IMG/VR virus record: IMGVR_UViG_3300034092_005311
Location: 1-33,456 of that record
DNA: 33,456 nucleotides
Source of the DNA: a virus
Direction: 5' to 3' (one strand)
Positions within the stretch are counted from its first letter, which is position 1; the number at the start of each line of letters is the position of its first letter. Under the pieces are notes generated by a model that was not told the DNA's origin, searched no databases, and worked only from the letters and a program-made list of their open reading frames with translations. Both the position numbers and the translations under genes were made by a program. Of the stretch, positions 1-29,698 are shown piece after piece.

Positions 1-201
1 TTATCGTGTGGTGCCGATTCTACCAATCTTACCATCAGATAGAATACGCTTAACATCATTTGCCAAGTCAAGTACGCCTTGTCTGAATGGGTCGATAAAC
101 ACATATGCTGCGGCTACAATAGCAATAACAATAACAGAAATAAGTAGCATGTATTCTACTGTTGATTGTCCTTCCTCGTCTTTTAGAAGCTCTGCTAGCA
201 T
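1..201 (-). CDS. Flp-type (type IVb) pilin-like protein, 66 aa
   Basis: Seen: a short N-terminal segment ends in E10-G11, followed by QSTVEY and a run of about 20 hydrophobic residues, then a short polar tail rich in D/K/R. Flp/TadE-type prepilins are cut by prepilin peptidase after G in a G-xxxxEY motif; here G11, E16 and Y17 fit exactly, so the mature form would be about 55 residues with an N-terminal membrane helix. The start is supported by an AGGAG sequence just upstream, and the gene is complete. Host Flp pilins build tight-adherence pili. No Tad secretion genes are nearby, so any pilus role would depend on host machinery. The surrounding genes are ordinary phage genes, so acquisition from a host is likely. 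It could alternatively act as a decoy or inhibitor of host pili; that is inference. Confidence 0.8.
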   Translation of the reverse strand: MLAELLKDEEGQSTVEYMLLISVIVIAIVAAAYVFIDPFRQGVLDLANDVKRILSDGKIGRIGTTR

Positions 202-335: not shown

Positions 336-611
336 CTAGTTCGTTCTCTTTACAAAGTCGTCAAGCGATATATAATGCTCATCAACAAACTTACATGAAC
401 GAATAACTGAATATCCTGCTTCTACCTTTTCTGCGAAAGGCCACTCAATCGAATAATGCTTGAAAGGTATCTCACCAATACCGCTAACCATGCAGGTTTT
501 CTCTGCTATTCTCTTACGATATTGCTCTTCTGTTTCATGGTCCTGTCTAGACTCAAGGAAAGAATCAAGCATAAGAATATCGCCGGGTGAATACTTTGGC
601 TGATCATCCAT
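336..611 (-). CDS. Hypothetical protein, 91 aa
   Basis: Not recognised. The product is mixed acidic/basic and soluble, without a signal peptide or membrane segment; two cysteines and an aromatic-rich centre (HYSIEWPF) are visible. An AGG-type Shine-Dalgarno (GAGGAA) lies about 9 bases before the ATG. It is the first gene after the strong promoter at 785-813 and the long inverted-repeat leader at 632-766, so its expression probably depends on that structure. No function can be assigned from sequence alone. Confidence 0.75.
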   Translation of the reverse strand: MDDQPKYSPGDILMLDSFLESRQDHETEEQYRKRIAEKTCMVSGIGEIPFKHYSIEWPFAEKVEAGYSVIRSCKFVDEHYISLDDFVKRTN

Positions 612-631
612 CTATTTATTTCCTCACAAGT

Positions 632-766
632 TAAAGTAGACCTAAATAAAAACTCGTATAAATAGAGGAAACTTAAAGATAAATCAGCGTTCAAAGCTAT
701 TTATTAACAACAACAAGGGATTTAAGTTTAAACTACCTATGCGAGTTTTTATTTAGGTCTACTTTA
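632..766 (-). ncRNA. Long three-tier inverted repeat: structured leader RNA
   Basis: Positions 632-656 and 742-766 are a perfect 25-base inverted repeat. Inside it, after a G-T wobble and a few more pairs, 669-677 pairs with 721-729 (9 bases). Inside that, 679-688 pairs with 696-704 (nine pairs with one bulged base) around a 7-base loop. Transcription from the promoter at 785-813 would enter the repeat about 12 bases after initiation and leave it about 20 bases before the start codon at 611. The distal arm is followed by AACTTGTGAGG rather than a U run, so a simple terminator is unlikely. It may be a regulatory leader, a processed small RNA or a stability element. No known riboswitch or RNA family is recognised. 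Nothing codes in this roughly 200-base gap. Confidence 0.65.
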
Positions 767-784
767 TTTAATCCTCACATATAC

Positions 785-813
785 ATTATATCGTGTTGAA
801 CCTATTGCGTCAA
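785..813 (-). promoter_or_regulatory. Sigma70-type promoter
   Basis: On the minus strand TTGACG (-35, 808-813) is followed by exactly 17 bases and TATAAT (-10, 785-790). The -35 box overlaps the stop codon of the upstream gene. The predicted start lies near 778, just before the structured leader at 632-766 and the gene at 336-611. It has the only perfect -10 box among the seven similar promoters in the window. Confidence 0.75.
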
Positions 814-1097
814 CCGATTTTCTTTGCATACTTTGAAATATATTCTTTTGGTAGTTTAAACGTACCATCCGTAGAATATGAACGTGCTGGGAATATTATT
901 GTCGTACTATCAATATTTTTAAGCGTGAACATTTCGCCTTCTTCGCCTAAAACTGTTAGTGTTTCTCTATACTTGACGATCTGTCCTTTGTCCTTGAAAC
1001 GAAACTCATGTTCTATTGTATCGCCAATAGAAACAGTAATCTTACTCTTTTTTAGTCTAGAGGAGATAAGATTGGATAAGTCCAAAGTTTCGCTCAT
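810..1097 (-). CDS. Hypothetical protein, 95 aa
   Basis: Not recognised. The ATG at 1097 (MSETLDLSNL) is preferred over a longer upstream frame because AAAGG lies about 7 bases before it. The protein is soluble and beta-rich in appearance (alternating hydrophobic segments such as KITVSIGDTIEHEF and TIIFPARSY), without cysteines or membrane segments. It ends in TGA overlapped by the -35 box of the next promoter. Upstream (minus strand) is another small unknown gene, so it probably belongs to the 1.1-5.3 kb cluster of small accessory genes. Confidence 0.7.
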   Translation of the reverse strand: MSETLDLSNLISSRLKKSKITVSIGDTIEHEFRFKDKGQIVKYRETLTVLGEEGEMFTLKNIDSTTIIFPARSYSTDGTFKLPKEYISKYAKKIG

Positions 1098-1159
1098 AGT
1101 GAACCTTTTATTGGTGTTGTCGCAGCAATACATTTTAAATAGATAGGAAAGTCCCTATT

Positions 1160-3770: not shown

Positions 3771-4055
3771 TCACCCCTTCAATAGATTCTTTTGCGAAGT
3801 CCTAACCTTCTCATAAACTGTTTCAGTATCGCCAAATACTGTAATATCATAGTTTCCAGTACCACCGCGTACAGTAATACGAGTGAAAGTCATTTTACTA
3901 TCAACTCCTAAATCTACCAACCTACCTTCTCGTAGAAAGGAGCTAAAACGGCTATCATCACGAATCATAACAACGTGTGCTGGATTTACAAATACATTCC
4001 TAACACTAATACGATTAGTTGCAGACTCTTCAAAGATTTCAGTAAGCTTAACCAT
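3771..4055 (-). CDS. Hypothetical protein, 94 aa
   Basis: Not recognised. The central part (VFVNPAHVVMIRD, then a beta-rich TFTRITVRGG) superficially resembles small beta proteins of the FlbD type, in which 'NP..I..I' begins a strand, but similarity is weak. No cysteines or membrane helices. Its start overlaps the stop of the next gene upstream, and it is followed after three bases by the 50-aa gene, so it is part of the same translationally coupled run. Confidence 0.7.
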   Translation of the reverse strand: MVKLTEIFEESATNRISVRNVFVNPAHVVMIRDDSRFSSFLREGRLVDLGVDSKMTFTRITVRGGTGNYDITVFGDTETVYEKVRTSQKNLLKG

Positions 4056-4297
4056 TATGTCTCCTTCTTTTGTATAAAAATGTTATTTAATGTTGTTGCC
4101 CAAAACTGACCATCAAGCCATATCTTGGCTGTATCCTCAGTATTATTTATAGATTTTATGAATATTGCAATGTAAGGTTTATCTGTTATCATAAACCTAT
4201 TAGGTGCTTTAATATTATCGGGATCAAATAATAAACAGCTTTGCGGTATGCGTACTAGATCCCCTTCTTTGTAAAAGTCACTCTCCATCATCTTCAT
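4055..4297 (-). CDS. Hypothetical protein, 80 aa
   Basis: Not recognised. The N-terminus (FYKEGDLVRIPQSCLLF) has the 'GDLVRI' opening of small SH3-like barrels seen in many phage proteins. Several in-frame ATGs occur (MKMM); 4297 and 4288 are both possible, and neither has a strong Shine-Dalgarno sequence. It overlaps the upstream gene by 20 bases in another frame, so translation probably depends on coupling. The stop overlaps the next ATG by one or more bases. Confidence 0.65.
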   Translation of the reverse strand: MKMMESDFYKEGDLVRIPQSCLLFDPDNIKAPNRFMITDKPYIAIFIKSINNTEDTAKIWLDGQFWATTLNNIFIQKKET

Positions 4298-10093: not shown

Positions 10094-11134
10094 CTAGTTT
10101 CTATGTAGAATATGTGTGTCAGACTCACGCATAGATGCTGCTGATTGACGAATGATTTGTGCTTTGGCTCTGAACTCAGTTATCGACCGGCTACCAGTAT
10201 AAGAAAGACCAGAGCGTATTCCATTATCAAGTTGCTCAATAATGTCCCTTGCAGTACCTTTGTATATAACAGAGGTTGAGATTCCCTCCAAAGATGAAGC
10301 CTTGCCTCTCCAATCAACTTGTGCATCCTTTGAAGCCATGCCACGATAGACTTTACGCTTTTCTCCTTCGGGGGTAATAAAGATTTTTCCGGGTGTCTCA
10401 TCAGTTCCTGCAAGGAGTGAACCAACCATTCCAAAATCAGCACCAACACCAATAGCCTTAACAATGTCTCCACTATTTTTAATGCCACCGTCCGCAATAA
10501 TCGCAACATTATTTGAAGTCCTCGCACAATCTAGAATACTAGAGATATTAGGAACACCGTGGCCTGTTTGTATGCGAGTAGAACAAATGCTACCGCCACC
10601 AATACCGACGCGAATGCTATTAGCTCCCCAAGAAACAATCCGGTCAAGACCTTCAAGCGTAGCCACGTTGCCAGCCATGATATGTGGTGCTTCACCAACC
10701 GCATGACGTAGTTCTCCAAGAGCATTTTTCATCAAGATATGATCTCCATGCGCTACGTCTACACATAATATTCTTGCTCCTAAACTAACTAGTTTCTTTG
10801 CTCTTTCTAGAAAGTCTCCTGTTATTCCTATTGCAAAACCTACCTTATCTGCTGGTATATTTTCAAAGATTTGTTCTGCCATTTCACATTGTCTTTCAAC
10901 TGTATTATATCTGTGAACAATAGCAAGACCTCCCATGCGAGCCATTAGAAGAGCCATATGCACTTCGCTAATGGTATCCATAGGAGAAGCAACAACTGGA
11001 AGCTCAAATGACAAGCCTCTATCTTCGTCTAACCAAGATTTAAGGCTGACTTCCTTGCGAGACATAATATCGCTATATTGTGGGACAATCAGAATATCTT
11101 CATAAGTTAGAGTTTCTTGAAACGGACTAAACAT
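10094..11134 (-). CDS. IMP dehydrogenase / GMP reductase family enzyme, 346 aa
   Basis: A TIM-barrel purine nucleotide oxidoreductase. Visible motifs: TYEDILIVPQYSDI at the N-terminus, VVASPMDTISE (IMPDH-like), the catalytic-Cys loop GIGGGSICSTR, IIADGGIKNSGDIVKA and the phosphate-binding GADFGMVGSLLAGT, then YRGMASKDAQ. There are no CBS domains; length matches GMP reductase or CBS-less IMPDH. Features are mixed: SPMDT-SE is IMPDH-like, but TGHGVP after the Cys loop and GMAS recall GMP reductase. GMP reductase would convert GMP to IMP, which with the phage PurA would steer purines toward adenine in this AT-rich genome; IMPDH would do the reverse (IMP to XMP). Direction is undecided. It sits between a thioredoxin-like gene and the ribbon-helix-helix gene. 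Confidence 0.9.
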   Translation of the reverse strand: MFSPFQETLTYEDILIVPQYSDIMSRKEVSLKSWLDEDRGLSFELPVVASPMDTISEVHMALLMARMGGLAIVHRYNTVERQCEMAEQIFENIPADKVGFAIGITGDFLERAKKLVSLGARILCVDVAHGDHILMKNALGELRHAVGEAPHIMAGNVATLEGLDRIVSWGANSIRVGIGGGSICSTRIQTGHGVPNISSILDCARTSNNVAIIADGGIKNSGDIVKAIGVGADFGMVGSLLAGTDETPGKIFITPEGEKRKVYRGMASKDAQVDWRGKASSLEGISTSVIYKGTARDIIEQLDNGIRSGLSYTGSRSITEFRAKAQIIRQSAASMRESDTHILHRN

Positions 11135-13343: not shown

Positions 13344-13557
13344 TATTGTTCCTAGTCGTTCTGAGTCTTAGTTCTGTAATAAGATTGATTGAATCTTCTT
13401 GTTGTCTTAGTATCTGACATAGATCATGCATTTGAGAACTAAGTAAAAGAACCGCTTGTAGGTTACTTTTTCTATCTTCTTTTAACATTTCAGTGCATAG
13501 GAACTCATATTGCTTATACAGCTGAACCCAAGCATTTATAATGTTTTCGTTAGTCAT
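13333..13557 (-). CDS. Helical hypothetical protein, 74 aa
   Basis: Not recognised. Predicted almost entirely helical (LQAVLLLSSQMHDLCQILRQ), with three cysteines or fewer and a polar tail. It starts four bases before the end of the UV endonuclease gene, so it is coupled to it. Confidence 0.65.
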   Translation of the reverse strand: MTNENIINAWVQLYKQYEFLCTEMLKEDRKSNLQAVLLLSSQMHDLCQILRQQEDSINLITELRLRTTRNNNGH

Positions 13558-14486
13558 GCTGCCTTCTTACAATGTATATCACGATACTTGAACAAAGCAA
13601 GTTCTTTCATTTTTGCTTCAATCATTATGTCTACATCTTGTCCGAAAGTATCAATATAGTTATAAACATAATCTGAATGTGCTTGTGGGGGACACTTTAT
13701 CTTTTGCTCTTCACAACGAGATTCAGAATAATGAACTACTGGCTTGATACTCCCCCAAGTAGAAACGGCGATTGCAAGCGCATCTTTGTGTGACATACCA
13801 CCATTGTTCAATGAATGATGATGATAGTCAAAAACAATAGGAATACCAGTGTGCTTGAAAATATTGTTGTATAGTTCCTCTGTGTTGTATAATGATGGTT
13901 TATCATCGTTTTCTAGTGTGAAACGTGTTCTAATCTTTTCATCCAGTAGTTCAAAGTTCCGTAGAAACTGTGCAATAGCCATAGGCTTATTCTTGTACGT
14001 CGCACCAACATGAATATTAATCTTGTTGTATGGAGTACGAGAAAGTCCCATCAAATCAAGAATATCTGCATGTACCGTCAAATCCTTGATAGTATTTTTG
14101 GTTACAGATGGATTAGACGAAGTGAGCTTATTAAATGGACCGGGATGGAAAGTAAGTCGTTGATTGGTTGCGGTAGCATATTGCCCACACTTACGAAGCA
14201 AAGTTGAAATACGCTCAACATTCGGGAGATTATAGATACCGTATTCGGATGCCCAAGGAAACATATCGGAGGACATACGGTAGAACCTAACTCCGTTTGT
14301 TGTATTCCATTGTAGAATCTTATAGAGATCAATGATATTCTGTTCAGCAAGTTGGGCAGCATAGTTAATACCTTTTTGATCGAACGTCTTGCGAATCATT
14401 GTACGGTTCGTTGTTACCCGCTTTTTGGCAGGAACATCGGAGAGAGTCATATTGATACAGGCATAGCCTAAGTTTAGTGTAGACAC
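13554..14486 (-). CDS. uvdE: UV-damage endonuclease (UvdE/UVDE family), 310 aa, GTG start
   Basis: TIM-barrel UVDE signature: LNLGYACINMTL at the N-terminus, RLTFHPGPF, INIHVGA, RFTLENDD, PIVFDYHHH, VVHYSESR, AHSDYV and IEAKMKELAL, covering the conserved His/Asp/Glu metal ligands. The family nicks DNA 5' of UV photoproducts and other lesions, a one-step start to excision repair. The GTG at 14486 is chosen because AAGGGG lies 6 bases upstream; the ATG at 14504 coincides with the predicted transcription start. The Shine-Dalgarno lies inside the palindrome at 14493-14524. Confidence 0.95.
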   Translation of the reverse strand: MSTLNLGYACINMTLSDVPAKKRVTTNRTMIRKTFDQKGINYAAQLAEQNIIDLYKILQWNTTNGVRFYRMSSDMFPWASEYGIYNLPNVERISTLLRKCGQYATATNQRLTFHPGPFNKLTSSNPSVTKNTIKDLTVHADILDLMGLSRTPYNKINIHVGATYKNKPMAIAQFLRNFELLDEKIRTRFTLENDDKPSLYNTEELYNNIFKHTGIPIVFDYHHHSLNNGGMSHKDALAIAVSTWGSIKPVVHYSESRCEEQKIKCPPQAHSDYVYNYIDTFGQDVDIMIEAKMKELALFKYRDIHCKKAA

Positions 14487-14492
14487 TAGAAA

Positions 14493-14524
14493 CCCCTTGT
14501 GCATATTGAATATAACACAAGGGG
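14493..14524 (-). promoter_or_regulatory. Palindrome enclosing the uvdE -10 box and Shine-Dalgarno
   Basis: Arms 14493-14501 and 14516-14524 are perfect complements (nine bases, ten if the flanking pair is counted). The -10 box lies in the 14-base loop. The AAGGGG ribosome-binding site is the copy nearest the gene (minus strand). RNA reading through from upstream would fold and hide it; RNA started at the local promoter lacks the first arm. Confidence 0.6.
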
Positions 14525-14537
14525 TCAACTAGGTCAA
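14509..14537 (-). promoter_or_regulatory. Sigma70-type promoter for the uvdE operon
   Basis: TTGACC (14532-14537, minus strand), 17 bases, TATATT (14509-14514). Same CTTGACC(TAG) and GTGTTATATT context as other promoters here. Predicted start near 14502. Confidence 0.7.
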
Positions 14538-28669: not shown

Positions 28670-29698
28670 TTATAGGTTTTCTACGATTTCTGGTGAGAAT
28701 GAGAACAAAACCTTATTAACATCTGAACATTCGTTTTGAATGCATGAATCGATAAACCTTCTCATCTGGTCACCATTATCAAATCCTATTAGGTTACCAT
28801 GATAGAATAGTTTAAACTTACCAAGTTGATCAACAATATCACATTTATTGATAATCAGTTTTGTAGCACCAGTTAGCTTACAGGAGTCAATCAGCTTATC
28901 TAGATTAAGCCAGTTAACTTTACGACGACGACCTGTTGTTACTCCATACTCTTGTCCTGCATCTGCAATCGCAAGAAGTTCTGGATTATCTAATAGAGAA
29001 GCAGGAAAGTCTGGATCTTCACCAGAACGAGTATCATATAGCTTGGCTACTGAGTAGATGTTCTTGATCTTTTGAGGTCCAAATCCAAGTGAACAAGCAG
29101 CATAAGGCAGGCATTCGCTTGATGTTACATAGGGATAAGAACCCCAGTTAATATCAAGCCATACTCCTTGTGCGCCCTCGCACAGAATATTGCCATGAAG
29201 TTCTTCATTAAGCAAGAAAGACTTGTCAATCTCTGAATCTTTGGCTAAAAGACCAACTCTTGCACACTTATCACGATAAGCTGGTGCGATACCTTGGCCT
29301 GTTGTGCCAAGTTTACCAGCAAGTTTGGCCTTATCTTCTACGATGTGCTCGTTTGTTACGATATGAGCACGGGGATGAACCTTGATAAGAGAAACATCTA
29401 CCCCGCCTTCTTTTAGCTCGTTCACTTCTTTATAGAAAGCATCTAGATTGACAACACAGTTAGGTCCAATAACCGATGTAATGCCATAAAATACACCACT
29501 TGGAACAATATGAGTAGCAAACTTCTTGCCATTGTGGTAAATGGTATGTCCCGCATTCGAACCACCATTATAGCGGGCTACAAAGTCATAATATTGCTTA
29601 CCATCAAAACGCTTCTTGGATGCTAGATAGTGGGTTACTTTACCCTTACCTTCGTCGCCCCAAGCGGCTCCAATAACAACATCAACATTATTTACCAT
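28670..29698 (-). CDS. purA: Adenylosuccinate synthetase, archaeal-length PurA, 342 aa
   Basis: Motifs: AAWGDEGKGK with catalytic Asp D15, NAGHT with H51, GTTGQGIAPAY (131-141) and R147, CEGAQGVWLDINWGSYPYVT, and VTTGRRRKVNWLN. Length (342) matches archaeal PurA, not the 430-residue bacterial form. PurA joins IMP and aspartate using GTP on the way to AMP. In the phage homologue PurZ, which makes diaminopurine, that Asp is replaced; here it is kept. D-retaining PurZ0-like relatives are known, so dGMP use cannot be excluded. Starts two bases before the FEN gene's end region. Confidence 0.95.
   Translation of the reverse strand: MVNNVDVVIGAAWGDEGKGKVTHYLASKKRFDGKQYYDFVARYNGGSNAGHTIYHNGKKFATHIVPSGVFYGITSVIGPNCVVNLDAFYKEVNELKEGGVDVSLIKVHPRAHIVTNEHIVEDKAKLAGKLGTTGQGIAPAYRDKCARVGLLAKDSEIDKSFLLNEELHGNILCEGAQGVWLDINWGSYPYVTSSECLPYAACSLGFGPQKIKNIYSVAKLYDTRSGEDPDFPASLLDNPELLAIADAGQEYGVTTGRRRKVNWLNLDKLIDSCKLTGATKLIINKCDIVDQLGKFKLFYHGNLIGFDNGDQMRRFIDSCIQNECSDVNKVLFSFSPEIVENL

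Follow-up and report, generated by a model that had tools for sequence, protein, structure and literature searches.

Hairpins processed by RNase III lie between the early genes of T7-like phages. The Correia (NEMIS) elements of Neisseria, bacterial MITEs of 104–157 bp, have inverted-repeat ends and a duplicated target, are bound or cleaved by RNase III within mRNA, and include an element that separates the mtrCDE promoter from its genes (PMC2649163; PMC10969869). An mRNA can also be stabilised by a hairpin at its 5′ terminus (PMC3997798), and integron attC sites, a further class of palindrome, have been reported in phages too (PMC9892861). Here, we describe a long palindrome in the leader region of a phage gene, for which Correia elements appear to be the closest working analogue.

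The window analysed, the whole 33,456-base record of an uncultured phage, has all its main genes on the minus strand, including those for a GroEL-like chaperonin, a DnaE-type DNA polymerase, a DnaB-like helicase, ribonucleotide reductase and thymidylate synthase. Its largest intergenic gap (612–809, 198 bp) separates a 107-aa ORF (810–1133, minus strand) from a 91-aa ORF (336–611, minus strand) and holds, in the direction of reading, a TTGACG-17-TATAAT site, the palindrome and a Shine-Dalgarno (SD) sequence, followed by the ATG at 611, which lies 20 bases beyond the stem as originally placed. The 91-aa ORF matches nothing in Pfam, PHROG or NCBIfam, and the predicted structure of its product is too poor for use (pLDDT 49).

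The first-pass annotation described a three-tier inverted repeat at 632–766, and its two outer tiers stand exactly as drawn. On the minus strand the 5′ arm of the outer stem (742–766) and its 3′ arm (632–656) form 25 of 25 Watson-Crick pairs, uninterrupted, and the second tier (669–677 with 721–729) folds as 9 perfect pairs. A middle stem of 8 further pairs (658–665 with 733–740, including two U-G pairs on the minus strand) joins these tiers, so that the repeat amounts to two 46-nt arms that are 87% complementary, with mismatches and internal loops in the inner arms, and with the ends TAAAGTAGACC. The third tier holds for one strand only: a bulged 9-pair stem (679–688 with 696–704) within the apical 43 nt (678–720) is present in the plus-strand minimum-energy fold, whereas on the minus strand, which the annotation took to be transcribed, two small, weak hairpins form at the apex instead. 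U runs occur inside the arms, at about 742–751 and 647–656. Part of the 5′ arm (723–737) also shares 12 exact complementary bases (GTTTAAACTACC) with the end of the upstream ORF (850–864), which is probably chance, since windows of this size yield chance matches of 10–14 bp.

The hairpin is real and unusually long for this DNA. The minus-strand fold of −51.7 kcal/mol compares with −30.9 ± 3.5 kcal/mol for shuffled sequences (z −5.9), and the plus strand folds at −53.9 kcal/mol (z −9.6); no shuffled sequence folded as well on either strand. The longest perfect inverted repeat is 25 bp, against 14 bp in 100 Markov-shuffled windows. Perfect inverted repeats of at least 20 bp were absent from ∼2.63 Mb of retrieved phage DNA with some redundancy, in which the next longest was 19 bp, and we found no other such hairpin between the remaining genes of the window.

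An insertion is indicated by an 8-bp direct repeat, TGTGAGGA, overlooked in the first-pass annotation and read directly on both sides of the palindrome: the upstream copy lies at 772–779 (minus strand), while the downstream copy at 621–628 (minus strand) is the SD of the 91-aa ORF. In 20000 random placements of two 16-nt flanks separated by 135 bases, 43 (0.2%) showed an 8-bp match. When the palindrome and one TGTGAGGA copy are removed, a 47-bp gap (TATAATGTATATGTGAGGAAATAAATAGATG) is left, forming a compact leader in which the spacing of promoter, SD and ATG is ordinary. A transposition-like event that duplicates an 8-bp target would be expected to produce such a remainder, a reading weakened by the TGTGAGGA copies, which sit 5 and 3 nt from the paired arms and do not abut them exactly, and by the occurrence of a single copy of the element. 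Like a MITE, the palindrome has terminal inverted repeats (the 25-bp perfect arms), is short (135 bp) and contains no conserved ORF; the collections searched yielded neither copies at other sites nor a cognate transposon sharing its ends. Its affiliation with known element families would be one of resemblance, and we call it MITE-like. With Correia elements it shares approximate size class, inverted-repeat ends and a possible position between promoter and gene, and its flanking repeat may correspond to their duplicated target (PMC2649163; PMC10969869). It differs from them in that they exist in many copies with defined core and end sequences, whereas here there is one copy of different sequence, an 8-bp repeat set off from the arms, and a palindrome that spans almost the whole element.

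The comparison with relatives points the same way. Among 80 loci retrieved via GroEL, only two (L005 and L007) keep both flanking ORFs in order, with identities of 29–35% for the 91-aa protein and 42–44% for the 107-aa protein. In both loci the upstream stop and downstream start overlap as TAATG (GTGAATTAATGTTT), leaving no intergenic space, and leader, promoter and hairpin are all absent between the two genes. A more distant contig (L085) retains homologues of two upstream ORFs and has no such palindrome after them. Missing in these relatives, the combination of leader, promoter and hairpin is confined, within the material examined, to the window's lineage, and with its nearest relatives lacking it the hairpin looks like a lineage-specific palindromic insertion. 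As the flanking proteins of the relatives are only 29–44% identical, the empty site cannot be matched base for base, and these relatives may instead have lost the element.

No second copy of the hairpin was found in the window, in IMG/VR, in phage and plasmid records, in a GTDB pattern scan or in 296 whole bacterial genomes. In IMG/VR, exact 22-nt arm and paired-arm patterns returned nothing, nor did single-sequence homologue searches with either flanking ORF, and 25 whole related viral records together with 296 genomes of the Pontibacter phylum gave only AT-rich chance matches of 13–40 nt. Two matches to a 19-nt arm were rejected as chance, as they look like coding sequence (KVDLNK codons) with no palindrome. 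Paired 10-nt arms matched twice in GTDB, once by chance in Halomonas and once in a Pontibacter sequence that contains GTAGACCTAA three times but no long palindrome. These three Pontibacter copies, two direct and one inverted, fall within 170 bp (L152:5735–5904), where 0.5 would be expected in 8 kb allowing one mismatch, although the search pattern itself required two copies; the cluster may be a regulator site, without relation to the window. The earlier view that no known RNA family fits is upheld for Rfam at the gathering threshold. The weak matches there, far below cut-offs, are to miRNA precursor models only, and any long hairpin will trigger such models.

The signals around the hairpin are of uneven quality. 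The promoter at 813–785 (minus strand) is present as annotated, TTGACG-17-TATAAT, matching the consensus at 11 of 12 positions in our scan, and its −35 shares bases with the upstream ORF's stop codon. Such sites nonetheless occur at chance frequency in this DNA (18 in 5 kb against 18.2 expected from shuffling, three of them 11/12 matches), and we therefore treat it as a putative promoter. The SD of the 91-aa ORF is clearer, with AGGA at 9-nt spacing from the ATG at 611; it does not pair with the hairpin in the predicted fold, and in partition-function folding the SD and start region are equally accessible with and without the insert. A terminator scan found nothing at the hairpin, in agreement with the first judgement that this is not a simple terminator: a GC-rich, short-loop stem directly before a U run is absent, and the U run lies inside the stem. 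The accompanying statement that there is no T run is correct beyond the stem, but the 3′ arm itself contains UUUUU after CGAG. Translation switching and attenuation are thus left without support, given the unchanged SD accessibility and unrecognised terminator, and on this modelling the hairpin does not appear either to switch translation or to sense a ligand.

The explanation we favour, tentatively and with not quite an even chance of being right, is that a MITE-like palindrome specific to this lineage inserted into the 5′ UTR, where any effect of the hairpin would fall on mRNA processing or stability. An insert of ∼143 bp, together with an 8-bp duplication, would have moved, by presumed mobility, into the short leader that precedes the 91-aa ORF. 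With the SD duplicated on both sides by the insertion, the gene would have kept a working ribosome site. Transcription, presumably started at the adjacent upstream promoter or reading through from farther back, would then produce an independent AU-rich hairpin with a long double-stranded stem, whose 25-bp uninterrupted duplex should begin ∼12 nt from the mRNA 5′ end predicted from the −10. RNase III sites require at least about two turns of double-stranded RNA, which 25 uninterrupted pairs would provide if transcribed, and the likeliest effects would be to offer a substrate for RNase III, to slow 5′-end-dependent decay by means of a 5′-terminal stem, or both. This second possibility has a parallel in the stabilising 5′ stem-loops of the E. 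coli papA and ompA type, where a stable stem likewise lies near the 5′ end (predicted here) with the SD outside it, although the present hairpin is much longer and AU-rich. The sequence is compatible with each of these effects, and with a neutral insert.

Several of the same features would be accounted for if the hairpin had arisen in place as a functional phage leader or intercistronic element, marking where the downstream mRNA begins and being processed by RNase III or protecting that 5′ end, and we regard this as rather doubtful though deserving of serious consideration. The hairpin lies directly behind a promoter-like site and ahead of a clear SD and ATG, its 25 uninterrupted pairs suit RNase III, and its intact outer arms suggest maintenance. 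Since the genes here are all co-directional, read-through transcripts would carry the hairpin too. In this respect it recalls the RNase III hairpins of T7-like phages, also long stems between co-directional phage genes, but it is not repeated between other genes of the window, is shared with no relative, and an origin in place leaves the SD duplication unexplained.

The run of U residues invites the further idea of a transcription attenuator or bidirectional terminator, in which an inner stem closed by CUCG/CGAG and followed by UUUUU inside the arm would stop some transcripts. The inner stem is indeed flanked by an A-tract and a U-tract, and the nascent transcript is predicted to be folded by the time it reaches the U run (−24.3 kcal/mol on the minus strand, −38.7 kcal/mol on the plus strand). 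We nevertheless consider attenuation unlikely, as the terminator scan was empty at this site, the apical loop measures 43 nt, the inner stem is AU-rich, and the U run falls within a longer perfect stem and not at a stem end. No greater likelihood attaches to an element working at the DNA level, as a replication start, a recombination site or a protein-binding palindrome, for which one can cite a long AT-rich palindrome in the window's largest gap that folds well on both strands. Against it, GC skew does not switch at 600–800, and the genes on both sides read one way. The palindrome resembles an integron attC site in being imperfect and of similar length, but the required boxes (RYYYAAC/GTTRRRY) are absent from both ends of 632–766, and we reject that assignment.

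A bolder version of the insertion, in which an unreported palindromic element mobile among large phages inserts at, and duplicates, SD sequences so that the gene it hits stays on, while the long double-stranded leader alters processing or titrates host RNase III, strikes us as improbable. The first-pass annotation had also suggested a ligand- or protein-sensing leader, similar to a riboswitch, or a free small RNA of ∼135 nt. A strong fold in leader position that belongs to no known Rfam family fits either idea, yet both are very improbable: the structure is conserved in no relative and is missing from the two syntenic loci, the stem leaves SD accessibility unaffected, an expression platform (SD sequestration or a terminator) is absent, and a small RNA would have no terminator for its release. 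An assembly or amplification artefact, although the hairpin occurs on a single metagenomic contig 632 bases from its end, is scarcely credible, because fold-backs give arms that are perfect to the apex, unlike the mismatched and looped inner arms here, and the neighbouring ORFs are both intact.

The favoured MITE-like insertion, if recent, would be a rare instance of a short palindromic element trapped in a large phage genome, with a leader remodelled and the gene unbroken. If the hairpin is instead a selected leader, it would be one more case of a phage mRNA whose 5′ end is a long duplex. Current knowledge would stand under either reading, and with a single orphan copy the conclusions that can be drawn are limited.

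The surrounding genome offers some further observations. Just downstream of the hairpin-bearing gene, a 66-aa ORF (1–201, minus strand; MLAELLKDEEGQSTVEYMLLISVIVIAIVAAAYVF...) resembles Flp or class III pilins through weak Pfam matches below cut-off (Flp1_like, E 0.0025; Class_IIIsignal, E 0.005), and has no match in the 25 related records. The phage also encodes purine enzymes on the minus strand, an adenylosuccinate synthetase (28670–29698), which is PurA-like and not PurZ-like since the GDEGKGK motif is kept, and an IMP dehydrogenase/GMP reductase-like protein (10094–11134), as well as a UV damage endonuclease UvsE/UvdE (13554–14528, minus strand) that scores above the cut-off of NCBIfam TIGR00629. 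Finally, an N-terminal pattern resembling (I/P)GD(L/I/T)(V/L/I)xL is common to the two ORFs flanking the hairpin (336–611 and 810–1133) and to two other small minus-strand ORFs (1160–1510 and 4055–4297), and these may be paralogues of one small fold.
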